This document shows, piece by piece, positions 3,753 to 20,031 of a stretch of 30,775 bases of DNA. Source of the DNA: a virus; IMG/VR virus record IMGVR_UViG_3300044681_000956, positions 1 to 30,775 of that record, one strand, 5' to 3'. The position numbers were made by a program, and so were the translations under genes. The notes beneath the pieces were generated by a model that worked only from the letters and a program-made list of their open reading frames with translations, did no database searches and had not been told where the DNA came from. Each line of letters starts with the position of its first letter. Position 1 is the first letter of the stretch.

Positions 3753-4958
3753 TCAGAATGGTATTTCTTCATCTCCCTGAATCGTAGTTACTTGTGCAGG
3801 ATTGGAAATCGTTGCATCAGAACTGGGTTCTGGAGAGTCTAGTTTTGTATATAAATCACGAAATGCTGCTTTGGTTTCTTCGTCAAAACGATTTGTGCAG
3901 AGGTCAATGGCTTTCTTACGATCGCCAAACTTACTAAAGGTCTTGACCACATCAACAACACGACGTGTACTAATGATCTCATCTACACCACCTTCGCTGA
4001 AGGTACGGCGAATGATGTCGGCCCAGGCTACAAGTTTGTCGCCGAACTCGGCGTCCTGGACGTTGTATTTAGCCATGTAGTTGGCAACAATCTTCTTCTC
4101 GATGCTTGGAGTAGCATACTGTTGCTCCACAGTAATGCTAAAGCGCTCTAGGAAGGCCTCATCCAGAATCTGAGCTGCAATAAACTTACCATCGTCGGTA
4201 CCACGACCCTTGGTATTAGCAGTAGCAACTACGGTAAAGCCAGGAGCAGGTTTGATAACCTCACCAGTCTTCTTGTTCAGATAGGCCTTGCCTTCTAGCA
4301 CACTCTGCAAGCACATGAGCTTGTTGGAGCCGCGGTCAACTTCGTCTAGAAGTAATACTGCACCACGACGCATGGCTGTTAGTACTGGACCTTCACGGTA
4401 CACAACGTTACCGTCGATCAGAGTTGCACCACCGATGAGATCGTCTTCATCAGTCTCGATGCTGATGTTCACACGAACCATCTCACGCTTTAGACGTGCA
4501 CAAACCTGCTCAACCATGCTGGTCTTACCATTGCCTGAAAGGCCTGTAATATAAACAGGGAAGAAATCCTGGCTTTTCAGGATGGTTGAAAGATCCTTGA
4601 AGAATCCATGAGCAACAAAATTCGCATCCATGTCAGGTACCATGTTGTCGAATTCATTTTGCAGACGCTTCTGGCGCAGTTTTGGAGCTTCTTCGATCTG
4701 AGTTACCGTAGCGGCCTGAACAACAGTGCTCACAGCATTCTGTACTTCAGCAACAGGTGAAGTAGTAAGGGGATCAAAATTGCTAAGATCCCATAAGCCA
4801 CGACCTTGCTTGAGGGACTTATTGTCGATGATAAAACGCGGATACGGGTAGCCCATTTCTTTGGCAGCATTTTCGATCTCGGCTCTGGTATGAGTGCTGC
4901 TGGTCTGCAACAGGGACTTCACAAAGGCCTGCTTGAGGCTGTCGGTAAACTTGGTCAT
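3753..4958 (-). CDS. cobS-like: CobS/MoxR-type AAA+ ATPase
   Basis: The 401-residue ATPase has Walker A G-L-S-G-N-G-K-T-S (139-147), Walker B V-L-L-L-D-E-V-D (201-208), a sensor-1 A-T-A-N-T near 245-249 and a sensor-2-like S-T-R-R. It has the order of CobS/MoxR proteins, which in cyanophages are often annotated as cobaltochelatase CobS. The first 60 residues form a separate alpha-helical region. The ATG at 4958 is preferred over an in-frame TTG at 4982, because a GGAG lies upstream and the TTG falls within the promoter region. It follows the VWA gene, as CobS follows or precedes CobT, so the two probably form a MoxR-VWA machine. No CobN subunit is present, so cobalt chelation itself is doubtful. 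Confidence 0.85.
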   Translation of the reverse strand: MTKFTDSLKQAFVKSLLQTSSTHTRAEIENAAKEMGYPYPRFIIDNKSLKQGRGLWDLSNFDPLTTSPVAEVQNAVSTVVQAATVTQIEEAPKLRQKRLQNEFDNMVPDMDANFVAHGFFKDLSTILKSQDFFPVYITGLSGNGKTSMVEQVCARLKREMVRVNISIETDEDDLIGGATLIDGNVVYREGPVLTAMRRGAVLLLDEVDRGSNKLMCLQSVLEGKAYLNKKTGEVIKPAPGFTVVATANTKGRGTDDGKFIAAQILDEAFLERFSITVEQQYATPSIEKKIVANYMAKYNVQDAEFGDKLVAWADIIRRTFSEGGVDEIISTRRVVDVVKTFSKFGDRKKAIDLCTNRFDEETKAAFRDLYTKLDSPEPSSDATISNPAQVTTIQGDEEIPF

Positions 4959-4989
4959 GATATAGTAGCTCCGTGGTGTCAATTCATCG

Positions 4990-5018
4990 ATATTAATAGA
5001 TATGTATCAGTTTGTCAA
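4990..5018 (-). promoter_or_regulatory. Sigma70-like promoter before the AAA+ gene
   Basis: The minus strand shows TTGACA (5018-5013), a 17-base spacer and TAATAT (4995-4990). The -35 box overlaps the TGA of the VWA gene. The start codon of the AAA+ gene follows 31 bases after the -10 box with a GGAG site. The boxes and spacing are close to ideal for host polymerase, so this gene can be made independently of the VWA gene. Confidence 0.7.
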
Positions 5019-7354
5019 GCAATTTCTTGGATAAAATGGCTCAAAAGAACCCTGGATTTCCGGCGATCCATGTGATTTTTCATGAAATTCTTACGAATCT
5101 TGCTAACATCCTGGTAAGTGTCTCCATCTTCCTGATCCTCGACAAAGGTTTTCATGGCCATGTTGAAGCTAGGAACCCAGAAATGCTTACGATAGCCAGG
5201 TGTCTGGGTTGTTAGGTAACCAACCTGATTGACTTCGCGCATCTCTGCTTCAACACTGAGGCGAGGGATATCATAGTACATGGTTTCGGTACCATTCAGA
5301 GCCAGACTCTTGGCCTTGGCAGTCCTAAGCAGATTACCGCTGGGCTTGTTTTTTCCAGAGCGTGCAATAAAGTAACCAATGTTGCGAGCACCTGTATTCT
5401 GGCCAACCAGGCTTAGCAGGGCATCAGTCAAACGATTGTTGTTCCAGTTGTCACGACGGTTGGTTGACTGAATTACACTAACTTCATGCCCAGTTTCTGG
5501 ATCACGAACGACCAGTTTATAATTACGAGCTTTGATCCCATAATCCCAGAGGACATGTCTCTTGGCATTTGGTGAGTTTAGATCAGGACTCAATTGCCAG
5601 ACCTGGTCAATGGCATCAGCATCGCCATCGGTAAGATAAATGGCATTTACAATATCAACACGAGTCTGTTCTTTGAACGCCCTGAGCACATAGTTCATGC
5701 CCATGATAGCCTGGTTCAATGGCGTGCTTTGCAGGCGCTCGCTGCTGGGCATGTAAGACATTCCACCGCCGCGGCTGTAACCGTATCTTAGTCCGAAACT
5801 ATTGGTTTCGGGATTGTAACCTCCAGCCATGGCAACCGCAATAAGTTGCATGTTCCGAACTGCCTGCTTATAGTCTCGGGTAGACATGGTTGAACTCAGA
5901 TACTGTCTGAGACGGAATCCACTGCCAAAGACAGCAATGTCGCCAACGTTATTGGAAAACGGCGTCGCATCGCGACGGCCATAGAATTCCCTGACCTGAG
6001 GCTTGGCGTAGGAACCGATGTGGTCAGTATTGCTGGTAAAACCATAGACCTCGAAAGGAATGTTGATCCTACGACAAAACATGGTTAGTAAAACTATCTG
6101 CTGAATGCTATAGGTGTAGGTGTTACCATCGGCCATGCTACCGCTTTGATCAAAGATCAGAACAAAACCATGGCTCTTGCCCTTGGGCACCACGGTAAGT
6201 CTCTGGAAGATATCGTCGGTAAGTTTGTGCTGATGAAGTTTTTTCAGGTTCAGCTCGCCAGTCTTGCTTGTAGCAGCACGAGCCAGCTGTCGGGCATTGC
6301 GACGGATTTCAAATTCACGACACAGATGCTCAACTAATTTCTTGTTGTCCATTTCAAAACGATCCAGGTACTGCTGGAAGTTCATCTGTTGTTCAAGTTG
6401 AAGAAATTCTGCGTCGCCAGCAACACTGCCTGGGCGGGTAGCTATGAATTCGAACAGTACCTGCTTGTATGGAACAATCAGGTTCTTGGGAGTTTCTACT
6501 TTGGGAAGATTTACATAGACCCAGGGCAGAGCATTGTGGTCAATGAGCTCATGCTCGCGGTTGCGAAAATTTTCGTCGGTATAGGACCTGGGGTTGACGG
6601 TATAATCTCTGAGTTCTGGAAGCTCTTCACGATCCAGATCCATGTCATCCTGGTCGGTACCACCAAGAGGGCCATTGCTAGTGTCGTCCGAATCGTTGTT
6701 GCCATCTTTGGCATCGCCTTGCTGTCCTTGGCCTTCCTGGCCATCGCCTGGTTCGCCGTCGCCAAAACCCAACGACTCCTGTTCTTCTTCCTGTTGTTGC
6801 TTCTTCAAATCTTCCTTGTCCAGGTCGAAAATTTCCTGAGCCAGGGCAACAACATCTTCCCAGGTTTCGCAGAGCTCAATACGCTTCACAATCTTCTGTT
6901 CGGATTCGGTAAAATTGATCTGGAAGTAGTTGCCAACCTTGAAGTGAAGGTTGATTCGATCAACGAGCAAAAGGTCGTCTGTATTGTTGAAATCTACATG
7001 ACCAAAGAATCCACGATCCAAAAGCTCTTTGTAGCCTCGGACAAAACTGGGACGAACACCAGGATAACGACTCTTGATCATGCGCTCGATTCGAGCATCT
7101 TCGACTACGTTCAGAAACGAACGCAGAGCAGGATTCTTGTATACTGTACCATGCCAACCATCCAGGGGAGTTTCAAGAGCATGGCCGATCTCATGAGCAC
7201 GGAGCATGTCGTATAGCTCGGGGCTCATGTCTTTCCAGATTGGGAGATATAGTACACGATTGGCTACATCGAAAGCCGCAGTAGACATGTTTTTATGCTC
7301 TACTCTGAGGTTTTCGATTGCCATTAGACGGGCGATAGCTTGATTGTGTTGCAT
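5015..7354 (-). CDS. CobT-like VWA protein with HExxH metallopeptidase-like N-terminus
   Basis: The 779-residue protein has three parts. Near the N-terminus, H54-E-I-G-H58 followed by N-V-V-E85-D-A-R-I-E90 looks like a zinc-peptidase site of gluzincin type. Residues 186-250 are a long acidic, glutamine- and glycine-rich linker. Residues 395-640 are a von Willebrand A domain with the MIDAS motif D402-Q-S404-G-S406-M and later T-D-G-D. An acidic linker before a C-terminal VWA domain is the hallmark of CobT/ChlD-type partners of MoxR ATPases. The ATG at 7354 has a good AGGAG; a TTG 17 codons earlier lies in the -35 box of the promoter. The AAA+ gene follows directly. A role in remodelling or cleaving a phage or host protein is inferred. 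Confidence 0.8.
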   Translation of the reverse strand: MQHNQAIARLMAIENLRVEHKNMSTAAFDVANRVLYLPIWKDMSPELYDMLRAHEIGHALETPLDGWHGTVYKNPALRSFLNVVEDARIERMIKSRYPGVRPSFVRGYKELLDRGFFGHVDFNNTDDLLLVDRINLHFKVGNYFQINFTESEQKIVKRIELCETWEDVVALAQEIFDLDKEDLKKQQQEEEQESLGFGDGEPGDGQEGQGQQGDAKDGNNDSDDTSNGPLGGTDQDDMDLDREELPELRDYTVNPRSYTDENFRNREHELIDHNALPWVYVNLPKVETPKNLIVPYKQVLFEFIATRPGSVAGDAEFLQLEQQMNFQQYLDRFEMDNKKLVEHLCREFEIRRNARQLARAATSKTGELNLKKLHQHKLTDDIFQRLTVVPKGKSHGFVLIFDQSGSMADGNTYTYSIQQIVLLTMFCRRINIPFEVYGFTSNTDHIGSYAKPQVREFYGRRDATPFSNNVGDIAVFGSGFRLRQYLSSTMSTRDYKQAVRNMQLIAVAMAGGYNPETNSFGLRYGYSRGGGMSYMPSSERLQSTPLNQAIMGMNYVLRAFKEQTRVDIVNAIYLTDGDADAIDQVWQLSPDLNSPNAKRHVLWDYGIKARNYKLVVRDPETGHEVSVIQSTNRRDNWNNNRLTDALLSLVGQNTGARNIGYFIARSGKNKPSGNLLRTAKAKSLALNGTETMYYDIPRLSVEAEMREVNQVGYLTTQTPGYRKHFWVPSFNMAMKTFVEDQEDGDTYQDVSKIRKNFMKNHMDRRKSRVLLSHFIQEIA

Positions 7355-8092: not shown

Positions 8093-8436
8093 TTTATATA
8101 ATCCTTTTCAGGGTTTTTCATAAGGTTGATAAGCAGGGGAAGGATCAGACCTTCTAGCTTCTTCAGTTTTTCCTGACTTTCACGTTCAATCAGAACTCGG
8201 TGAGCATCGGCATCAAAAGATCCCGAGCCAACACTGGCCTGTACAAATTCTTCAAGTCTGTCTATCTTGCCGTAGAGATCCTGAAGTATACGACCAAATT
8301 TTTCTAGCTCTTCGCTAACAGGTTGAACAATTTCTTCGGTTTTGACTACAGGTTTTTCTACAACCTGTTCTTCGCTGTCTACTGCGGTAAAACCAAAATC
8401 AAAGTTATCATACTCAGCCAGTATGTTTTTGTCCAT
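8020..8436 (-). CDS. Conserved phage protein of unknown function
   Basis: The 138-residue protein has an acidic, disordered-looking N-terminus, a helical centre (LEKFGRILQDLYGKIDRLEEF) and a C-terminal block LPLLINLMKNPEKDYIKWPN followed by a short helix. The K-N-P-E-K-x-Y-I-x-W-P-N-R block resembles one I associate with T4-like marine phages, where function is unknown; that link is from memory. It overlaps the end of def by 23 bases and its own 3' end overlaps the next gene by 73 bases. Confidence 0.65.
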   Translation of the reverse strand: MDKNILAEYDNFDFGFTAVDSEEQVVEKPVVKTEEIVQPVSEELEKFGRILQDLYGKIDRLEEFVQASVGSGSFDADAHRVLIERESQEKLKKLEGLILPLLINLMKNPEKDYIKWPNRVSVIESQMQKILAITRPAT

Positions 8437-8995
8437 CTTCGTGTGCCTTTAGCAATGTTTGTAGGGCGTGTTTCCTGATTAGTTGTTTACGCTGTTTTTC
8501 ATAGCGTTCTTTGGCCATCCTGAGTTTGAGCTTGCTGGCTCCAACTGTAAAATCACGTCCTTGCATGTGTTCATATTCATGCTGGAAAATTCTGGCACTA
8601 AGACCAGCATACTCTAGTTCTCTGAGCTCGCCCTCAACGTTCTGATAACGAACAAGAATTCGTGGAGGTCTCTTGATGTACATTTGCAGGCCTGGATAGC
8701 TAAGACATCCTTCTCTGAAGGTGTCGGGCTCGCCACGAAACTCTACAATCTCGGGATTGACGATAACCACGTTATTGTCTGCTGTGCCCATGACGAACAT
8801 TCTATAGGGCAAACCCACCTGGTTGGCACTTAGACCAACACCGCCGAGCTCAACCATCTTGTTGGCCAGAACCTGCCCCAGTCTTTTTACGTCATCGGGG
8901 TCGTGTTCGGCAAAATTGAATGGCAACAGTTGGTTGCGCATAATCGGAGTTTCTGGATCTACAAGATTGAGCTGGTCCTGACGAATAAGTATCAT
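8414..8995 (-). CDS. def: Peptide deformylase
   Basis: The 193-residue enzyme removes the formyl group from N-terminal methionine of new proteins. All three family motifs are visible: G-V-G-L-S-A-N-Q-V-G (52-61), E-G-C97-L-S-Y-P (95-101) and Q-H139-E140-Y-E-H143-M-Q-G. C97, H139 and H143 are the metal ligands and E140 is the catalytic acid. The start codon overlaps the gene 46 stop as ATGA. Phage deformylases are common in marine T4 relatives, where they are thought to sustain protein maturation late in infection. This copy has the usual length for a full enzyme. Confidence 0.95.
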   Translation of the reverse strand: MILIRQDQLNLVDPETPIMRNQLLPFNFAEHDPDDVKRLGQVLANKMVELGGVGLSANQVGLPYRMFVMGTADNNVVIVNPEIVEFRGEPDTFREGCLSYPGLQMYIKRPPRILVRYQNVEGELRELEYAGLSARIFQHEYEHMQGRDFTVGASKLKLRMAKERYEKQRKQLIRKHALQTLLKAHEDGQKHTG

Positions 8996-10713
8996 GATAG
9001 TTTGATCTGGCTATAATTTTGATGTTTTTCAAATCGGATCTGGCTTCTGAACTTATCGAAAAGCTGATCCCCCTTATGACTAATTACAAACACATTGGTT
9101 TCTTCGCCCAAGGTATTCACAAGATTCATGACATAATCTGTACCATTGTTGTCCAGGCTGCTGTCAAATACTTCGTCCAGGATGAGTAAATTGCTGCTGG
9201 CACTGTTCTTCATCTTGGCTATGGTACGCCAGGTGAACAATAGGGCCAGGTCAATGCGTTGCTTTTCACCTTCGCTGAAGCTGGCATAGCTAAAATCGTC
9301 TCTGTGGCGACTACGAATTACTTCCTTGAAGGTCTCATCCAATTCAAAACTCACAAAGAAGTCCATGGCGGCTAGGTATTTATTGACCAGCTTATTGATC
9401 ACAGGCAGATATTGTCTAATGATCTTGGTCTTGATACCTGTGTCCTTGAGCAGACTACTGGCGGCTTCGTGGTAATATCTATCTTCGTTGAGCTTGGTTT
9501 TTTCCGTGGCCTGATCAACAACTTCCTTGGCCATGGTTTTGAGCTTGGCTCTTTCTTCGGTTAGTAAAACTAACTCTTGCTCGTCATTGTTAGTATCGAC
9601 CTGAATTTTTCTGAGGTAGTTCTGACTGGCAATGATCTCACTATTGGTATGCACAATCTCACTCTGAATTTCAGCCATGCGTTCCCGAGTATCAAGTATG
9701 GTTTCCAGACGTTCCTCGATGGCCTGCATCTTGGTGGTTATGCTCTGTATTGCAGTTTCTACTTCGGAAATCTTGTGTGTATGCTTGCCTATGGTTGTTT
9801 GCTTTAGTTCTTCGCTTATGCCCTGATTACAGGTAGGGCAGTTGTCATGATCTTCATAAAAGGCAATTTCGTCCTGAGCTCTTTGTAGTCTGGTTCTGAG
9901 TTCTTTGACCAGTCTCTGGTACTCGACTCTTTTCTCTGCAATGTCATCGTTGTCGGCAATGCTCTCTTCCAGGCTGACAAAATTAGTATTCAGAATGGTA
10001 ACATGAGCCTGTAGGTTTGCAATATTGCCGCTTAGATCAGTCATGCGAAGTTCGGCTTCGTCTCTGCGCTTCTTTTCGTCAGCCTCGAGCTTTTTGATAT
10101 AATCCTGCTGTATACGAGCCTTTTGTTTACCTACTTCGATGCGGTTATCCAGATCCTTGATCTGGTCCTTGAGAGTGCTGAGTTTGTCTTTTAGAACATT
10201 GTTCATGACAGTGAAGATCTGAATATCCAGAATATCTTCGATGATTTCGCGTCTATGGCTAGGCGGCAACTGCATGAACGGCGTAAAACTAGCACTACCC
10301 AGAATAACAATCTGAGTAAAAGACTTGTAGTTCAGCTTTAGGATCTGCTCTTCCAAAATCTTTTGATAATCTCGACTGGCTGCATCCTGATTCAGGATTT
10401 CATCATTGCAATAGATTTCAAAGATAGCTGGCTTGATACCACGACGGACCAGATAGGATTTTTTCCCTACACTGAACTGCATTTCCACAACACAGTTCTT
10501 CTGGTTGATGGAGTTGACTAACTGTGGCTTATTGATATTTCGGAATGGCTTTCCAAACAAAGAAAAACAGATGGCGTCAAGTATGGTACTTTTACCTGCG
10601 CCATTCTCACCAACAATCAGTGTGCTAAAACTACGATCTAATCTGATTTCGGTAAACTGATTTCCTGTACTTAGGAAGTTCTTCCATCGAACAGTATGAA
10701 ATTTTATACTCAT
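8992..10713 (-). CDS. 46: gp46 recombination endonuclease subunit (Rad50/SbcC-like)
   Basis: The 573-residue ATPase pairs with gp47 to resect DNA ends for recombination-dependent replication and host DNA breakdown in T4. Walker A G-E-N-G-A-G-K-S-T is at 35-43. Two long coiled-coil arms flank a zinc-hook C-P-T-C near residue 293. The ABC signature S-F-S-E-G-E-K-Q-R and Walker B L-L-I-L-D-E-V lie near the C-terminus. The ATG overlaps the gp47 stop by four bases, so translation is coupled, as in T4. Confidence 0.96.
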   Translation of the reverse strand: MSIKFHTVRWKNFLSTGNQFTEIRLDRSFSTLIVGENGAGKSTILDAICFSLFGKPFRNINKPQLVNSINQKNCVVEMQFSVGKKSYLVRRGIKPAIFEIYCNDEILNQDAASRDYQKILEEQILKLNYKSFTQIVILGSASFTPFMQLPPSHRREIIEDILDIQIFTVMNNVLKDKLSTLKDQIKDLDNRIEVGKQKARIQQDYIKKLEADEKKRRDEAELRMTDLSGNIANLQAHVTILNTNFVSLEESIADNDDIAEKRVEYQRLVKELRTRLQRAQDEIAFYEDHDNCPTCNQGISEELKQTTIGKHTHKISEVETAIQSITTKMQAIEERLETILDTRERMAEIQSEIVHTNSEIIASQNYLRKIQVDTNNDEQELVLLTEERAKLKTMAKEVVDQATEKTKLNEDRYYHEAASSLLKDTGIKTKIIRQYLPVINKLVNKYLAAMDFFVSFELDETFKEVIRSRHRDDFSYASFSEGEKQRIDLALLFTWRTIAKMKNSASSNLLILDEVFDSSLDNNGTDYVMNLVNTLGEETNVFVISHKGDQLFDKFRSQIRFEKHQNYSQIKLS

Positions 10714-11768
10714 GAGCCTTCATAATCCTGAGCTTCAACATACAGGGTTTTCAGTAGAGTTTTTAGACGTTCTTTGTCAGCATCAGTTTCAATGCTGTCT
10801 ACATATTCACCTAGCAATGTCATGGTATCTTCGAGGTTTAGATTTTCTTCATCTATGGCTTCGCTCTCAAACTCACTGAAGTCCTCGATGATTTTCAATT
10901 CTAAGGGATTTACCTGATAGAGTCGATCTACCAAGGCATCAAACTCAGAAAAATTTGTCTTGTTAGCCACAATGAGCTTGACACTGCGATCCTGATAATG
11001 TGCTAGGTTTTTTATGGGCTCGGGGTTGTTTTTGTCGTCGTAAACAATTCGGTAAAACATTGAATTAGGATTTTCAATGAACTCAAGTTCATTAGAATCA
11101 GAACACCATATATGAAACCCCCTAGGATCATCGTAGTCGTTCCAGGTAAGTTCATAAGGATTCCCCAGATAGGTAATATTGCCCTTGGTACTGCGATGAT
11201 GGAAATGTCCTGAGAATACACGATCAAACTTTTCAAATGTCTGGGGATCAAAGCCGCCTTCACATTGCTGTCCGCGATGCATGATAAATCCTGTAATTTC
11301 CAGATGGCCAAACATGGTCTTGGCCTTGGTGTTTTTGATCATGTCCATGCAGTGCGCATAGTTATCAGTACAGATCCAGGGCATGAATAAAATTGGTCCG
11401 CACCGTAGGGTTTCTTCCCTGGGTGTATCAATCACTGTAATGTTAGGGTAGCTGTCCAGTAACAATCTTGGACTGTTTACGTCGTTGGTATTCTTGAAAA
11501 AGGTGTCATGATTTCCAACCAATAAGAACATCTGAATATTTCTTCTCTGAAGTTCGTCAAAGAAATACTCACGACAGTTCTTGAGTGTATTGAAATTTAT
11601 GTATTTGCGTCGATCAAAGATGTCACCTAGATGAATAATGTTCTTGATATTTCTGCGTTCAAGCTCAGGAAAGAAAGTCTCGGTATAAAACTTCCTAAAG
11701 TAATCATCGTATGATTGGTTGTCTGATCTTGCTCCGAAATGCGTATCTGTTATGAGAGCGAATTGCAT
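10710..11768 (-). CDS. 47: gp47 recombination endonuclease subunit (Mre11/SbcD-like)
   Basis: The 352-residue nuclease has the calcineurin-type phosphoesterase motifs in order: D8-T-H10-F-G, H-L-G-D49-I-F-D-R-R, L-V-G-N-H-D-T, and later G-H-L-E and S-G-H-F-H-H. These residues bind two metal ions for 3'-5' exonuclease and endonuclease activity. It forms a complex with gp46 encoded directly downstream. The ATG lies 19 bases inside the dadA-like gene, a compact but plausible overlap, because the protein begins with the canonical strand MQFALITDTHFG. Confidence 0.96.
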   Translation of the reverse strand: MQFALITDTHFGARSDNQSYDDYFRKFYTETFFPELERRNIKNIIHLGDIFDRRKYINFNTLKNCREYFFDELQRRNIQMFLLVGNHDTFFKNTNDVNSPRLLLDSYPNITVIDTPREETLRCGPILFMPWICTDNYAHCMDMIKNTKAKTMFGHLEITGFIMHRGQQCEGGFDPQTFEKFDRVFSGHFHHRSTKGNITYLGNPYELTWNDYDDPRGFHIWCSDSNELEFIENPNSMFYRIVYDDKNNPEPIKNLAHYQDRSVKLIVANKTNFSEFDALVDRLYQVNPLELKIIEDFSEFESEAIDEENLNLEDTMTLLGEYVDSIETDADKERLKTLLKTLYVEAQDYEGS

Positions 11769-13686: not shown

Positions 13687-14205
13687 TCAGATAAGTTCTT
13701 CGTTCCAGTGTCTGTATCCTTCTCTGAAAGCCATGTTGCTTTGTGTTTCGCGAACTTCTACTCGAAAACACCAGAGGCGATCTGCTTCTCCAGGACCCCA
13801 GCAATCAGGAATATACACACCATTGACAAATTTATATAACATGTCAGCCAGGCCTTCGCAACCCAGTCTGGGCAGGATGGTTAGCTTGGCCATTTTCTTT
13901 TCTTGCAGCAGCTTGAAGGTTTCAAGCTCTGGATCATCTTCGGCCACCAGCAAAGTATGATCAAACTGATCTTCTAAAATTCCCTTGAGTTCTTTTAGTC
14001 CGCCGTAGTCTGCTGCCCAGTTACGAACATCCAGATTATCAGTACCAAAAAAGAACTTCATGCTAAAACTGTAACCATGAATTAGATTACAATGACTGTC
14101 TGCCCTCCATTGTCTATAAGCACAGGGAAACGCGTCATGATATTCCTTGGTGCTAACAAACTTGTATGGATGAGGACTATGAGCTGGGGCTGGCGGTAGG
14201 TACAT
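13687..14205 (-). CDS. queD-like: QueD/PTPS-type 6-carboxytetrahydropterin synthase, divergent
   Basis: The 172-residue T-fold enzyme should convert dihydroneopterin triphosphate to 6-carboxytetrahydropterin on the way to preQ0. Visible motifs are H38-C39-N-L-I-H43-G-Y45 (in place of C-x-x-x-x-H-G-H), D-Y-G-G-L-K-E-L-K (the V-D-F-x-x-L-K element), F-D-H-T-L-L with the catalytic His, C-E-G-L-A and V-E-V-R-E-T. The usual second H of HGH is Tyr and the segment F-P-C-A-Y-R-Q-W has Tyr where related enzymes usually have a zinc His, so the metal site is altered. It is preceded by a CATAAATA late-promoter variant and a leader shared with dpdA. Function in 7-deazaguanine synthesis rests on its company with folE, queE and dpdA. 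Confidence 0.8.
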   Translation of the reverse strand: MYLPPAPAHSPHPYKFVSTKEYHDAFPCAYRQWRADSHCNLIHGYSFSMKFFFGTDNLDVRNWAADYGGLKELKGILEDQFDHTLLVAEDDPELETFKLLQEKKMAKLTILPRLGCEGLADMLYKFVNGVYIPDCWGPGEADRLWCFRVEVRETQSNMAFREGYRHWNEELI

Positions 14206-14218
14206 CTTTTCTTCCTAG

Positions 14219-14226
14219 TATTTATG
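14219..14226 (-). promoter_or_regulatory. Variant late promoter before queD
   Basis: The minus strand reads CATAAATA, one base off the late consensus, 14 bases before the queD ATG. The AAATACTAGGAAG that follows is shared with the dpdA leader. Confidence 0.4.
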
Positions 14227-15274
14227 AAATTAGTAGGTTGTACATGACATTGGCGTTTAGGTAATTCTCACTAAGTATTCTTTGTTGTTCTTTTAGTGCG
14301 TCCTGATACTTTTCGGGGTGCATGAGTCTGTCATTGATTACATTGATTAGATCATACTTGTGTATCTTATAATTTTCTGGTGTATCCGTCCAGTTGCTGG
14401 GATACAGGAATTCAGGCAAATACATTTCTGCATAGCTGCACCGCTTTGGCAGTACAGGTATGGTATTTAGCATAACTGCTTCCATGATGCTAATGCCCAG
14501 ATTTTCATGCAGACTGCAGCTAAAGATTACCTGACTACGAGCCAGTTTTCTATAATAGGCATCCTTGTCCAGTCCTAGCTTCTGAGTAATAATCCAGGGA
14601 ACTTCTTGCCCATAGGTCTGGGCCAGATCTTCGGCAATCTCGGGCTGCTTGTCGGCATTGTATCTATGCGGCCAGATTACACTGGTGTCTTTGTTGGATG
14701 TAGCATTTCGAATTGCGTTCAGGCCCCCAATGAGTTCCTGATGTGGTTGTCCAGAGACTATGGCCTTTTTACTGGGCTCTCCCTGAAGATTCAGAACTCT
14801 GAGAAACATGTTTTTGTGAAACTCAGTGGCAAAATAGTTATAGTCACAGGCATGGAACCAGGCCTTTTCCTGATGCCAGGGCCAGGGCTTGGTCATCTTC
14901 ATGCCCAGAATGTCAGTGGCATCATAGGCACCAGCATGCCAGATACCATGAATCTCTACGGGTATGTCCAAAAGGTCGCTCATGTATCTAATAGCAGTCA
15001 CAGCAAAATTCCAGGCGTCAGTTACCAAAAACTTGTCGCCTGGTCTAACTTTTCCTGCACTAAACAATTCGCTAATCTTCTTGACCTGACTGGCCTTATA
15101 AAAATTTGTAGCACCAAAATCCAAGAAGGCACCAGTACTGGTTCCTTCGGGAATGGCGTCGCCTGCAATAGTCTCTACCTGAGCATTTAGCTTCTGTAGA
15201 TCGATTGGAATATTATGAAACCATTGCAGGGTATAACGCTGATCAATAGGCTCAATGGGAACTATGTAGATCAT
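14222..15274 (-). CDS. GT-B glycosyltransferase (GT4-like)
   Basis: The 350-residue protein has two Rossmann-like halves. The C-terminal half carries the GT4-type donor site: V-I-F-S-C-S-L-H-E-N-L-G-I-S-I-M-E-A, with the E-x7-E spacing, followed by N-T-I-P-V-L-P. The ATG at 15274 overlaps the stop of the nucleotidyltransferase-cupin gene as ATGA; an earlier in-frame start would sit inside that gene. Because its direct neighbour makes an activated sugar and the surrounding genes concern DNA modification, it may glycosylate modified DNA, but a lipopolysaccharide or virion target is equally possible. Confidence 0.78.
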   Translation of the reverse strand: MIYIVPIEPIDQRYTLQWFHNIPIDLQKLNAQVETIAGDAIPEGTSTGAFLDFGATNFYKASQVKKISELFSAGKVRPGDKFLVTDAWNFAVTAIRYMSDLLDIPVEIHGIWHAGAYDATDILGMKMTKPWPWHQEKAWFHACDYNYFATEFHKNMFLRVLNLQGEPSKKAIVSGQPHQELIGGLNAIRNATSNKDTSVIWPHRYNADKQPEIAEDLAQTYGQEVPWIITQKLGLDKDAYYRKLARSQVIFSCSLHENLGISIMEAVMLNTIPVLPKRCSYAEMYLPEFLYPSNWTDTPENYKIHKYDLINVINDRLMHPEKYQDALKEQQRILSENYLNANVMYNLLIS

Positions 15275-16050
15275 GATTTTCTTTCGATATCCTCTTCCTG
15301 GCAAATATCTCCATATTGTATCTCAACTAGGTGCAAAGGTCGATTACTATTATTGATTAGCTGATGCCATTCTCTCTTTTGAATTGTAATTATTTCATGT
15401 TTGCGAATTGGCATGTAAAGACCGCCTGCACCAGAATCTGGTTCATCCAGGCTACTTCGAACCAGTGCGCCTTCGCCTTCGCTAACCATCCAGAGTTCAT
15501 TTCTAAGAAAATGTCTTTGCATACTTAGTTTCTGGCCTGGCTCCACAACCAACTCCTTGACCTTGGTTCCGCCGAGCTCGTACATAACTCGGTAATGTCC
15601 CCAGTTACGCTTGGTTATGGGCTGTTTCCATTCTTTGAGAATGGCACTACTGCTATTGGCCTTGTTTGAGCCTCCAACCCCAAACAGGAAACTCAGATTA
15701 TCATCCTCATAATCCATTTCGGGAATATTGTCTCGAGTTCTGTCTCCTCCATTGCAAAAGAATATCCTAGCTTCAGGATACATGCTACGCACAGTTTTGA
15801 TTGCATTTATAGCAGTTCCATTGGCATCATTGGGAAAGGTAATGGCATGATCTACCATGTTCAAATGACTTAGAACCGTCAGCCTTTCAGCCATTGGCAT
15901 AAAAGGCTTACCTTTTTTCGCAGTAAGCCATTCATCGCTGTTGGTTGCCACAACCAGTTTGTCTGCCATGCGTCTGGCAGAATCAAATAACTGAATGTGA
16001 CCACTGTGTACTGGATCAAATCCGCCTGAAACTAGGGCAATCTTTTCCAT
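15271..16050 (-). CDS. Cytidylyltransferase-like domain fused to a mannose-6-phosphate isomerase-type cupin
   Basis: Residues 1-147 form a nucleotidyltransferase of the HldE-C/TagD type: G-G-F-D-P-V-H15-S-G-H18 is the HxGH site, and an S-S-S segment near 133-137 replaces the usual I-S-S-T-x-x. Residues 150-259 form a cupin like the isomerase end of ManC: an H-x-R-x-E-x-W-pattern (QRHFLRNELW), H-Q-L-I-N-N and a terminal E-I-Q-Y-G-D-I-C-x-E-E-D-I-E-R. The combination suggests one polypeptide that makes and activates a sugar phosphate. An AGGAGT precedes the ATG. It is translationally coupled to the GT4-like gene, which likely uses its product. Confidence 0.82.
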   Translation of the reverse strand: MEKIALVSGGFDPVHSGHIQLFDSARRMADKLVVATNSDEWLTAKKGKPFMPMAERLTVLSHLNMVDHAITFPNDANGTAINAIKTVRSMYPEARIFFCNGGDRTRDNIPEMDYEDDNLSFLFGVGGSNKANSSSAILKEWKQPITKRNWGHYRVMYELGGTKVKELVVEPGQKLSMQRHFLRNELWMVSEGEGALVRSSLDEPDSGAGGLYMPIRKHEIITIQKREWHQLINNSNRPLHLVEIQYGDICQEEDIERKS

Positions 16051-16071
16051 GTTTTTACTCCTTATTTTTCC

Positions 16072-16476
16072 TCATGCCTGGTAAACTTTGAGAGCCTGAT
16101 TCCTGTCATAGATCAGAATAGCTCCATTCTCGTTGTCCTCATAGACACGAACTTCGATATTACGACCAGGATACTTTTCGTGAATACGTTCAATCATGTC
16201 CTCGGCCATCATTTCGCAACTTTTGAAACTAGCCTGCATGGTACCCTGATCAAAGAGACGCTCTAGCCAACGCTTGAACTGAATAAATTCAACTTCACGA
16301 TCATTATGAAATACTTCTAGCTTGGCATAGAAATGAAAAATATGACGATGCGGTACTCCCAGGAAACTTACATCATCCCAATCACCTGTGGCTAACTTGG
16401 GGTCTGTATCAGCACCAGGGTACTTGTGAATACCTTCTTTCTGTAAACTTACCTCGATCCATCTTTGTAGGTTCAT
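16072..16476 (-). CDS. Small T-fold-like protein (QueD-related?)
   Basis: The 134-residue product resembles the QueD/PTPS fold in order of elements: H43-R-H45-I-F-H48-F-Y in place of H-G-H-x-Y, a strand and helix V-E-F-I-Q-F-K-R-W-L-E (compare V-D-F-x-x-L-K), K-S-C87-E88-M-M-A-E at the P-T-x-E-N-x-A position, and a terminal V-R-V-Y-E-D-N-E-N-G-A. The N-terminal zinc histidine is not obvious. It overlaps dpdA by four bases (ATGA), so it is co-translated with it. It could be a second pterin-related enzyme or a DpdA helper. The assignment is inference from motif order only. Confidence 0.5.
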   Translation of the reverse strand: MNLQRWIEVSLQKEGIHKYPGADTDPKLATGDWDDVSFLGVPHRHIFHFYAKLEVFHNDREVEFIQFKRWLERLFDQGTMQASFKSCEMMAEDMIERIHEKYPGRNIEVRVYEDNENGAILIYDRNQALKVYQA

Positions 16477-17759
16477 GCAAATAACTCCTCTAAATTAAAT
16501 TCTGGTGACATGACTTTGACAGGTTCGGACTCTATGGTCTTGCCAATATGTCGTAACCAATTATCAAAATCATTGGTGTTCTTGACGTCATATAAAAACT
16601 TGAAGGCATTCTTGTCTGTGCCTCTGGCAAAGTCAATCAGATTTTCCTGACTCTGATTTACACGCTCTACATGACGCATAAAATTCTTGATACAGGCACT
16701 TACATAGGCAATATAGATCTGAATGCTGGGGTCAATGTTCCCATACTTTTCTTCATAGGTTCGGGCGCTGATCTGCAGCACTTCGTAAAAAGTATCCAGA
16801 CTGTATTGCTTCATGCAAGGAAATAAATCACAGATATCTTCCCAGATGATTCTATAGTTGTCGTCAAATACACGATTGAATGTCATCTGATAATCAGCAA
16901 ATCTATACTTGCCATTGAGTACACGATCTCCGCTGATATAGTATCTGCCCTGTGTTACTCCGCTGGTGTGCGTGGTACTATCATAGCTTAGCTGAACACC
17001 CTGGTACAGTCCATTCTGTATGAATACTATGTTAGGCAACATACGATACACACTGCCCACACCCAGTAAGTGCAGATGTCGACTTTCTAGTTCAATGGGC
17101 AGTTGTGTGAAATAAAATGCGCGCTTGATATCTTCGAGCGGTCCTTTGCCCAGAGCAGCAGCTCCCATGGCGATACCGCCAATGCGACCAATGTGATAGG
17201 GTGTGAGTTCAGCTGCCACATATTCAACCCATTTCATGTAGCTGTCATAATCATTACCCTGGGTAATTAGCATGGGACGAGCCGAGCTTTTCTTTTCGTC
17301 AAAATGGTCAATCTGGCGTCTTAGATTTTTTCCAGTCTCACGAGCACAGGATTCCAGCATACTGGGATCAAACCTGCGATTTTCCAGATCCAGTCTTTCG
17401 GATCTATCACTTAGAACTCGTACTGGTATCATATCAAAGCACATGGCAATGTCTGAATTCTGTGCCTGATTGGCATAGATTTCTTCTTTGAGCTCGGGTG
17501 TGATTGTTTTACCCAGAGTAATGATCTGCAGACCACCTGAGTCTGCATGAATGCTATGCAGATACTTGGCATAGTTTTCTTTTAGTCTGGGACCAGTACG
17601 TCGTTCAGTAAAAGCATTGTACAAGAGACTAATCTTGTGATCATGCTGACCATTTAGACTGCCATAGGTCTGTGCAAACACGTCCATGTTTTCTGGACGA
17701 TAGCTTTCTTCATACATGAGTTTGAAATAACTTGTACCGCTTCCAACGTATTCAAACAT
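16473..17759 (-). CDS. dpdA-like: DpdA-like DNA 7-deazaguanine transglycosylase
   Basis: The 428-residue protein belongs to the tRNA-guanine transglycosylase superfamily. It has H-A-D73-S-G-G-L-Q, the counterpart of D-S-G-G-F-Q with the catalytic Asp, then M-C-F-D-M-I-P, Y-H-I-G-R-I-G-G-I-A-M-G and H-L-H-L-L-G-V-G-S, in the order found in the family. The C-x-C-x-x-C zinc site of bacterial TGT is absent, as is usual for DpdA. In phages, DpdA swaps guanine in DNA for a 7-deazaguanine base and so blocks host restriction. folE, queD and queE in the same window supply the precursor pathway, which supports DNA rather than tRNA as the substrate. It shares an AAATACTAGGAAG leader with queD. Confidence 0.85.
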   Translation of the reverse strand: MFEYVGSGTSYFKLMYEESYRPENMDVFAQTYGSLNGQHDHKISLLYNAFTERRTGPRLKENYAKYLHSIHADSGGLQIITLGKTITPELKEEIYANQAQNSDIAMCFDMIPVRVLSDRSERLDLENRRFDPSMLESCARETGKNLRRQIDHFDEKKSSARPMLITQGNDYDSYMKWVEYVAAELTPYHIGRIGGIAMGAAALGKGPLEDIKRAFYFTQLPIELESRHLHLLGVGSVYRMLPNIVFIQNGLYQGVQLSYDSTTHTSGVTQGRYYISGDRVLNGKYRFADYQMTFNRVFDDNYRIIWEDICDLFPCMKQYSLDTFYEVLQISARTYEEKYGNIDPSIQIYIAYVSACIKNFMRHVERVNQSQENLIDFARGTDKNAFKFLYDVKNTNDFDNWLRHIGKTIESEPVKVMSPEFNLEELFA

Positions 17760-17760
17760 A

Positions 17761-18261
17761 TCAACTTCCTAGTATTTTTATTAGATGCAGAGCCTGTGTT
17801 TTGGCGTCATCAAACGCATTGTGATTCAGACCTGATTCGGGTCGAGGAACATCTACCAGCCTGGACATGGTACGATAGCAACGATACTGTCTAAATGTCC
17901 AGGGAGGATTGTCTCCCAAAAGTTCAAAGGCCTGACTAAGTATGACTAGATCAAAATCAGGACCATTGGCCCAGATATTTGGTTTACCTGGACCTATCCA
18001 CATTCTAAGACTTCTCAGAGCTTCTGTCAATGGCTTCTGGTCTACCAAAAGGCTATCTCGTACCTGTTTTGGCTGACCCTTCCACCATTCGACCGTAGAC
18101 TTGTCTATGGTCATGCCAATCTCTTTACAGGTTGCTGGATCGACATTGACATAGAAGCCATCCTTGAGCTCAGTGTCTGTAAACCGTACAGCACCGATGC
18201 TTAGTATGCAGGAATTAGGCTGAACACCCAGAGTCTCAATGTCAATCATAATATTATTCAT
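17761..18261 (-). CDS. DEDD-type 3'-5' exonuclease (Rv2179c-like)
   Basis: The 166-residue protein has Exo I M-I-D7-I-E9-T-L-G, a middle acidic motif N-G-P-D-F-D and Exo III H-N-A-F-D-D-A-x-x-Q-A, giving the DEDDh set of metal-binding carboxylates and the catalytic His. The length and the W-A-N-G-P-D-F-D motif resemble the Rv2179c-like/phage exonuclease group rather than DNA polymerase proofreading subunits. Substrate could be RNA or DNA ends. The ATG follows folE's TGA by seven bases with a GAGG site, and the stop is one base before dpdA. Its last codons contain part of the dpdA leader element. Confidence 0.85.
   Translation of the reverse strand: MNNIMIDIETLGVQPNSCILSIGAVRFTDTELKDGFYVNVDPATCKEIGMTIDKSTVEWWKGQPKQVRDSLLVDQKPLTEALRSLRMWIGPGKPNIWANGPDFDLVILSQAFELLGDNPPWTFRQYRCYRTMSRLVDVPRPESGLNHNAFDDAKTQALHLIKILGS
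17773..17780 (-). promoter_or_regulatory. Variant late promoter before dpdA
   Basis: The minus strand reads TAAAAATA, one base off the late consensus, again 14 bases before the ATG, with the same AAATACTAGGAAG following. It lies in the last codons of the exonuclease gene, so chance is possible. Confidence 0.35.
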
Positions 18262-18268
18262 GACAACC

Positions 18269-18940
18269 TCAGCTATTTGCTATGGCCATGAACTCTGCAC
18301 GAGCTGCGGGGTCAGACTTGAAACAACCACCAAGTTTAGCAGTAACGGTATGACTGCCAGTATCTTCAACACCACGACTCTTGACACAGTAATGCTGTGC
18401 CTTGACAACAACAGCAATGTTATCTGTATCCAGAATATACTGTAATGCAAAGTATACTTGTTCGGTTAGACGTTCCTGAATCTGCGGACGCTTGCTAAAG
18501 TACTCAACAATGCGATTGATTTTACTCAGTCCCAGAACCTTTTGGTTTGGAATATAGGCCACGGTTGCCAGACCATCAATAATCACGAAGTGATGCTCGC
18601 AGTTGCTTTGAACAATGACATTTTTCTCCACAACCATTTCGTCGTATTTCATCTTGTTGTCGACTGTGGTACACTTGGGAAATGCGTCATAGTCCAGACC
18701 CCAGAAAATTTCATTGACATACATCTTGGCCACACGCTTAGGCGTCTCTGCCAGACTATCGTCAGTCAGATCCAGACCCAGTATGGTCATGATAGCAGTA
18801 AAGTTCTGCTCAATCTTTTCGATTTGGGTTTTGCGATCAAAGCCTGATTTGGTTACGGGAGTTTCAACACCCATCTTGACCAAATGTTCGTGAACTCTTT
18901 GACCCAGTTCAGGGTCGGTTTTTGTCTTGTTATATGACAT
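18269..18940 (-). CDS. folE: GTP cyclohydrolase I
   Basis: The 223-residue enzyme turns GTP into dihydroneopterin triphosphate, the first step to pterins and 7-deazaguanines. Zinc ligands are visible as N-C114-E-H116-H117 and A-Q-H183-Y-C185, followed by R-G-V-E-D-T-G-S-H-T-V-T. The ATG at 18940 is chosen because an AAGGAAGGA site precedes it and the family begins near here. The frame stays open for a further 60 codons upstream, but that stretch is arginine-rich, unlike any FolE, and contains a late promoter. It is part of the queE-folE-dpdA-queD set. Confidence 0.95.
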   Translation of the reverse strand: MSYNKTKTDPELGQRVHEHLVKMGVETPVTKSGFDRKTQIEKIEQNFTAIMTILGLDLTDDSLAETPKRVAKMYVNEIFWGLDYDAFPKCTTVDNKMKYDEMVVEKNVIVQSNCEHHFVIIDGLATVAYIPNQKVLGLSKINRIVEYFSKRPQIQERLTEQVYFALQYILDTDNIAVVVKAQHYCVKSRGVEDTGSHTVTAKLGGCFKSDPAARAEFMAIANS

Positions 18941-18977
18941 CTTGAATCCTTCCTTACGCGGACTTGATAATTGAATT

Positions 18978-18995
18978 TGCCACCTTTGTGTGGCA
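18978..18995 (-). promoter_or_regulatory. Small hairpin in the folE leader
   Basis: On the minus strand TGCCAC-ACAAAG-GTGGCA forms a perfect 6-bp stem with a 6-base loop. It begins about five bases after the last A of the late promoter, so it would sit at the very 5' end of the folE late transcript. Such a 5' hairpin could protect the RNA or influence translation; both are inference. Confidence 0.5.
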
Positions 18996-18999
18996 CTTG

Positions 19000-19007
19000 T
19001 ATTTATA
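19000..19007 (-). promoter_or_regulatory. T4-type late promoter before folE
   Basis: The minus strand reads TATAAATA, the exact octamer recognised by gp55-type sigma factors in T4. It lies 60 bases before the folE ATG, leaving room for a leader with a hairpin and an AAGGAAGGA ribosome binding site. A gene for gp55 is in the window, so the recognition factor is present. Confidence 0.75.
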
Positions 19008-19077
19008 CGCCTAGGTTGTCTTGGTCCCTGTGTGGGTCCTGACATTGATGATACCGTGGTAACAGAAACGCGAAAAT

Positions 19078-19106
19078 GCGGCCGAGCCATCCTATGTGCT
19101 CGCCGC
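19078..19106 (-). terminator. Strong hairpin downstream of queE, possible terminator
   Basis: On the minus strand GCGGCGAGC and GCTCGGCCGC pair over 9 bp with one bulged G around a 10-base loop. The stem is followed by ATTTT and then CGCG, so the U-tract is short. It lies about 80 bases after the queE stop and could end the queE transcript, or act as a structured RNA element. The weak U-tract keeps confidence low. Confidence 0.4.
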
Positions 19107-19185
19107 AGATTCGACAACACCAGCTTGGAAATACTACCTTTTTACCCACGGTCGGGCTTCTACTATTTCGTTACTCTGCGCATAA

Positions 19186-20031
19186 TCAGGTACCCCAGGC
19201 GTTCTTGAAAAGTGGTACTTGCAATCTATCGCTGTATCTGAACCCTTCCGACATTGCAAGCTCAGCAACGGCCCTGTTGTTGAGGAAATACAGCTGGTCA
19301 GTACCACCGCAGGGCATAAGATACACAGGACCTTTGAAACCAGCCTGACGATACTCGCTGACTGCTTGTTTGGCTTCATCTAGATCTTCCTTGGTAGCTA
19401 CAACAAACTTCAAATAAACATAACCATGTTCTTCATAATTTACAATGATGTCAGGACGAATTGCCTCTGACCATTTCTCACCACTGATACTTAGCTTTGG
19501 ACTTACACTAAAAGTAAGACGCTCCCAACCCTTGCGCCAATGAATTTTCAGATACTCAGAAAACTCTCGGCTTAGTTCTTGTGATCCGTTGGTTTCAAAT
19601 GTCAGCTCTTTCAGAGCAATCATTCGCGGTTCCTGTAAAAGGTCTGGATATGATCTTTGCCAGCCCAGCAACGGCTCACCTCCTGTAATGACAAGATGTT
19701 CATCTTTCCACTGACCATGAGGTAACATACCCATAATGGACTCAACAATAGAGTCAGTACTAAGAACAGGAGACAGATGCTTAAAACGAACATCCCAGCT
19801 AGCATAAGAGTCACAGCCAGTATGTACGAGAGGCAGGCTTCGATAGTCCGTAAAAGTATCTGCCTGGACCGCGATAACATTTCGCTCATTGGATTTCTCT
19901 CCTTTGGGCATTCCAAAGCCGTCACAGGTAAAGTTGCAACCAAAAGTTCTGAGGAAAACACTGGGGACTCCCATGTATCTTCCCTCACCCTGGATGCTAT
20001 AAAATAATTCGGAGATTTTTAGTTTTGCCAT
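19186..20031 (-). CDS. queE: QueE, 7-carboxy-7-deazaguanine synthase (radical SAM)
   Basis: The 281-residue radical SAM enzyme converts 6-carboxytetrahydropterin to 7-carboxy-7-deazaguanine. Its N-terminus, E-L-F-Y-S-I-Q-G-E-G-R-Y-M-G-V-P-S, is diagnostic of QueE. Cysteines C32 and C36 (G-C-N-F-T-C) are followed by a third, C73 (T-G-C-D-S-Y-A-S-W-D), after a 36-residue insertion, and T-G-G-E-P-L-L (116-122) binds SAM. It is longer than most bacterial QueE (about 210-250). A sigma70-like promoter overlaps the end of gene 55, so it can be transcribed independently. It provides the second step of the deazaguanine pathway with FolE and QueD. Confidence 0.92.
   Translation of the reverse strand: MAKLKISELFYSIQGEGRYMGVPSVFLRTFGCNFTCDGFGMPKGEKSNERNVIAVQADTFTDYRSLPLVHTGCDSYASWDVRFKHLSPVLSTDSIVESIMGMLPHGQWKDEHLVITGGEPLLGWQRSYPDLLQEPRMIALKELTFETNGSQELSREFSEYLKIHWRKGWERLTFSVSPKLSISGEKWSEAIRPDIIVNYEEHGYVYLKFVVATKEDLDEAKQAVSEYRQAGFKGPVYLMPCGGTDQLYFLNNRAVAELAMSEGFRYSDRLQVPLFKNAWGT

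Follow-up and report, generated by a model that had tools for sequence, protein, structure and literature searches.

In marine T4-like cyanophages, cobS belongs to the core genes and is commonly listed as a vitamin B12 auxiliary metabolic gene. MoxR–VWA pairs, NorQD and CobST among them, act in support of metal centres, and we know of no peptidase domain in the NorQ–NorD, CbbQ–CbbO and midasin-type systems, which likewise combine a MoxR ATPase with a VWA/MIDAS partner. For the phage pair, two published proposals are available. Liu et al. named it CobST, stated that cobT is mis-annotated as a peptidase and proposed that the host CobN is hijacked (PMC8651126), whereas the MoxR–vWA pair of group 2.2 jumbo phages, in which the VWA protein carries an N-terminal metallopeptidase, was proposed by Iyer et al. 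to act in virion assembly (PMC7824862). The second source also cites a report that a MoxR–vWA pair is necessary for the assembly of an archaeal virus tail.

The window analyzed here, a 30,775-base (30.8-kb) IMG/VR record, is a fragment of a marine T4-like phage and holds every recognised gene on the minus strand. It encodes a metallopeptidase–VWA (CobT-like) protein of 779 aa at 5015–7354 and, 32 nt downstream, a MoxR/CobS-type AAA+ ATPase at 3753–4982, both of which were full-length profile matches to known phage families, namely phrog_459 "peptidase" (E 6.5e-163) and phrog_249 "porphyrin biosynthesis" ("cobS"; E 7.8e-110), respectively. The VWA open reading frame starts at an ATG preceded by an AGGAG box (mechanically, the frame extends to 7405), and the likely start of the ATPase is the ATG at 4958. 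The identification of this neighbour as a MoxR/CobS-type ATPase, made in the initial annotation from the letters alone, was borne out by the phrog_249 match, by a match to AAA_5 (E 3.7e-19) and by intact Walker A (GLSGNGKT, 4521–4544) and Walker B (VLLLDE, 4341–4358) motifs; paired with a VWA protein holding a full MIDAS, this ATPase places the two genes among the MoxR/VWA systems. Neither Pfam nor NCBIfam gave anything useful for the VWA protein, and a phmmer search of it against the PDB found no relative.

The window pair belongs to an already known kind of phage gene pair. The peptidase was detected by tblastn in 463 phage records, nearly all of them cyanophages or other marine T4-like phages, and the cyanophage record counts by organism name were equal for peptidase and cobS (365, 61, and 24). 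The gene order gp47, gp46, peptidase, cobS, gp45, gp44 is found in P-SSM4 and others, and the families, the order and the gp46-to-gp45 neighbourhood of the window are like those of the cyanophage core "peptidase" and cobS, although the window VWA protein is just ~30% identical to the cultured cyanophage versions; a second IMG/VR contig encodes an identical one (100% identity). Among the 63 viral contigs that could be tested, i.e., those with at least 1.5 kb downstream of the peptidase gene, 50 carried cobS on the same strand within 600 nt downstream, while in the remaining 13 it was not found nearby (L074, L075, L080, L081, L083, L084, L092, L094, L095, L098, L099, L101, and L106), one of these, the 87-kb L101, having cobS ~18 kb away. 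A search for the same pair and its neighbours, as first suggested for this locus, recovered the pair repeatedly, with replication genes alongside it in several phage groups. The evolutionary distance-matrix correlations were alike for peptidase, CobS and gp46 (~0.8) and so lend no special support to a peptidase–CobS complex, partners not being told from shared inheritance by this measure. A scan of genome contigs yielded 20 loci, mostly on phage-looking contigs in metagenome-assembled bins, and no clear cellular homologue.

Within the VWA protein, a HEIGH motif (H54, E55, and H58; 7181–7195, in the helix 45–61) is followed by NVVEDARIE (N82 to E90; 7085–7111, in the helix 75–96), in which E85 is the candidate third ligand; the coordinates and the numbering of H54, E55, H58, and E85 given initially were reproduced exactly. 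The same succession of an acidic linker and a VWA MIDAS that had been read from the translation was also recovered, the linker spanning residues 199–251 (6602–6760), with 18 D/E and 3 K/R in 53 residues, and the MIDAS being complete, with DxSGSM (here DQSGSM; D402, S404, and S406; 6134–6151), T544 (5723–5725), and the TDG containing D576 (5624–5632). The HEIGH residues were invariant in A1, A2, and A3. Across 58 aligned relatives, which are ~30% identical to the VWA protein of the window, H54, E55, H58, N82, E85, D86, R88, and I89 did not vary, and neither did the MIDAS residues D402, S404, S406, T544, and D576; moreover, 36 of the 779 residues hold 9 of the 37 invariant columns (p ~2e-5). As judged from the alignments, this conservation of the motif residues argues for function. 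Both motifs occurred in 80 of 80 viral loci, a count that is biased because one or the other motif had served to retrieve these contigs, and the motifs were also present in 11 T4-like phage records from an unbiased tblastn search and in a distant Ochrobactrum phage relative. The HExxH with its downstream ED motif extends to SSU5-type, Rhizobium, haloarchaeal, Gordonia, and Ochrobactrum viruses as well. Three relatives, from an Acinetobacter plasmid, Pseudomonas phage phiK7B1, and Stenotrophomonas phage ANB28 (L022, L179, and L180), have no HExxH although the ATPase gene paired with them is retained; activity as a peptidase would hence be dispensable in some lineages.

Structure prediction, which had been put forward as a check on the putative zinc site, gave a confident AlphaFold2 model for the N-terminal zincin-like domain (residues 1–190; 6785–7354), with a pLDDT of 91.9 and a pTM of 0.86, in which the HExxH and E85 are placed on adjacent helices. 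The best Foldseek matches of this domain in the PDB were the minigluzincins selecase, abylysin, and jannalysin, together with ArdC, and the lower ones (IrrE/PprI, M61, and BlaR1) were mixed with unrelated folds; probabilities reached 0.99 with weak E-values of 0.1–1. The matches among viral structures included phage metallopeptidases and CobT/VWFA proteins, the latter from several phages and from haloarchaeal viruses. The domain thus shares a predicted HExxH zincin fold with the minigluzincins and ArdC, whereas the former are stand-alone small peptidases, ArdC is an antirestriction protein, and the window domain is fused to VWA. Confidence is lower for the full-length model (pLDDT 75), in which the acidic linker is disordered (pLDDT <50) and the VWA region matched the NorD VWA of NorQ–NorD complexes, the MIDAS of Rea1/MDN1 midasin, and other VWA folds. 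Taken together, the invariant HExxH with its downstream Glu and the zincin fold obtained by prediction, at modest PDB E-values, are those of a putative gluzincin-type metallopeptidase, and the first reading of a zinc-peptidase-like N-domain with three candidate ligands (H54, H58, and E85) fused to VWA is supported by conservation and by the model.

We consider it probable that the pair constitutes a two-component ATP-driven machine, composed of a MoxR AAA+ ring and a CobT-like VWA protein with a gluzincin-type peptidase. The observations that speak for it are the motifs, their conservation, the predicted fold, the pairing, the homology to CobST, and the absence of HExxH from cellular CobT; a cutting or remodelling machine is the more likely reading because the VWA protein keeps a zinc-peptidase signature that CobT lacks. 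The CobS-like MoxR protein would form the ATPase ring, on which the CobT-like protein may dock directly by way of the helical linker and the VWA/MIDAS; its N-terminal domain would bind metal through H54, H58, and E85, with E55 as the base. The ATPase would then pull on or remodel a client held by the VWA domain, at the cost of ATP, and the peptidase may cut the client so captured; an ATP-driven proteolytic machine is plausible. Most speculatively, and from the gene neighbourhood alone, the clients might be proteins of the replication and recombination phase, such as those of the phage replisome, DNA-bound proteins or host proteins.

This neighbourhood also bears on virion maturation, one of the roles suggested in the initial annotation. 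A machine in which a chaperone and a peptidase process structural proteins, as proposed for the group 2.2 jumbo phages, would accommodate the peptidase domain and the archaeal tail-assembly report cited above, and the three-domain architecture of the jumbo phage pair, compared by its published description, is like that of the window. In the T4-like phages, however, the pair lies with gp46/gp47 and gp45/gp44, and in unrelated phages with polymerase or primase genes; it adjoins replication genes in P-SSM4, DLP6, E. coli phage Cyrano, Rhizobium, Pseudomonas, and Stenotrophomonas phages, and Vibrio ICP2 phages. In the window itself, the conserved upstream neighbours are gp46 (SbcC-like, 8992–10713) and gp47 (SbcD-like, 10710–11768), while the gp21 prohead protease is encoded separately, ~20 kb from the pair, near the portal, scaffold, and major head genes (gp20, gp22, and gp23). 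Since replication genes, and not those for head or tail, surround the pair in several unrelated phage groups and this phage brings a prohead protease of its own, we hold a virion assembly machine to be unlikely and virion maturation is disfavoured; a replication-phase role is favoured, neighbourhood being weak evidence for substrate or timing. The published cyanophage and pelagiphage transcriptome text, as far as available, does not give the expression timing of the pair.

Two further features of this region were recorded. A peptide deformylase gene (8414–8995, minus strand) adjoins gp46 and is present in 38 related viral loci too, and homologues of QueD (13687–14205), GTP cyclohydrolase (18269–19120), and QueE (19186–20031), all on the minus strand, lie between gp47 and gp55. 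The latter set (13687–20031) suggests a preQ0/7-deazaguanine cassette, perhaps used in DNA modification.

A metal-insertion chaperone, in which the His-His-Glu site would hold a metal for a phage or host metalloenzyme and no proteolysis would occur, appears quite improbable to us. The similarity of the VWA region to the NorD VWA and the 2OG-Fe(II) oxygenase genes near the pair in some relatives are in keeping with it, and MoxR ATPase–VWA/MIDAS architecture is common to the NorQ–NorD, CbbQ–CbbO, and midasin-type systems. In zincins, however, the Glu of HExxH is the catalytic base and no metal ligand, and this residue (E55) is invariant here; the structure matches, too, are peptidases.

Quite improbable as well is the reading under which the pair would stand in for, or strengthen, the AAA+ motor of the aerobic cobaltochelatase and work with the host CobN to raise cobalamin (PMC8651126). 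The two-gene architecture is the same, and in comparison with aerobic CobST (PF06213 and TIGR01650; PDB 9uka and 21vu) the window pair has a homologous N-domain, a VWA domain, and a paired CobS ATPase; two cyanobacterial genomes, furthermore, contain CobN/ChlH-type genes and no CobT. Profile comparisons with hhalign aligned the N-domain of T4-like phages with that of SSU5-type phages (97.7%, E 1.4e-12), SSU5-type with cellular CobT (94.0%, E 1.4e-7), and T4-like with cellular CobT (62.8%, E 7e-5), against at most 1% in shuffled and unrelated controls, and by these profiles the link to cobaltochelatase CobT appears real but distant. What is new here is that, by profile comparison, the cellular CobT N-domain is homologous to the phage one and yet has no HExxH, an intact motif being found in 0 of 48 cellular CobT proteins, whereas the window protein retains both the motif and the catalytic Glu. 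The window CobS scored 91.1 bits against TIGR01650, far under the cut-off of 558.55 for true CobS, and the VWA protein had no match to PF06213 (CobT), to which one of 58 relatives aligned at E 0.037, or to any CobT profile of NCBIfam. In a CobS tree with long branches and weak deep nodes, the phage clade (99/91) stood apart from the cellular CobS clade (100/99). Related pairs also occur in phages of E. coli, e.g., Cyrano, a host for which the control genomes showed no match to CobN. Since cellular CobT lacks HExxH (0/48), phage CobS forms a separate clade and its score is 91 bits vs 558, a B12 role for the pair is unlikely, and the original preference for a function other than cobalt chelation is upheld by the CobS score, the missing CobT profile match and the absence of HExxH from CobT. 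Cellular CobST may itself act independently of CobN, given that 56 of 107 CobT-bearing genomes of Alphaproteobacteria, of completeness not known, had no CobN/BchH match, which also counts against a CobN-dependent viral CobST; Caulobacter vibrioides has CobT and no CobN match.

Host takeover or defence evasion, in which the pair would degrade host or defence proteins, is very improbable, since, despite the structural similarity of the N-domain to ArdC-type antirestriction and IrrE proteins, which are zincins, the pair is core in all cyanophage groups seen, unlike most anti-defence genes, it neighbours replication genes, and PADLOC gave for the window one marginal match that was not credited and no meaningful defence match, so that this part of the initial annotation found no specific support.

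The comparison with CobST suggests that both published labels are partly right, the architecture being CobT-like and the N-domain peptidase-like, and that the cobaltochelatase CobT N-domain is an inactivated zincin. A broader version of the peptidase-machine reading, which we regard as rather unlikely, would make it an old and widespread peptidase-armed AAA+/VWA machine of bacterial and archaeal tailed viruses that strips or cuts DNA-bound proteins for replication; CobST would then have lost the peptidase site in descending either from this machine or from an ancestor common to both. If the partner of CobS is an active metallopeptidase, the B12 reading would misname a gene that is very abundant in the ocean, and a protein machine conserved among viruses would have been overlooked.
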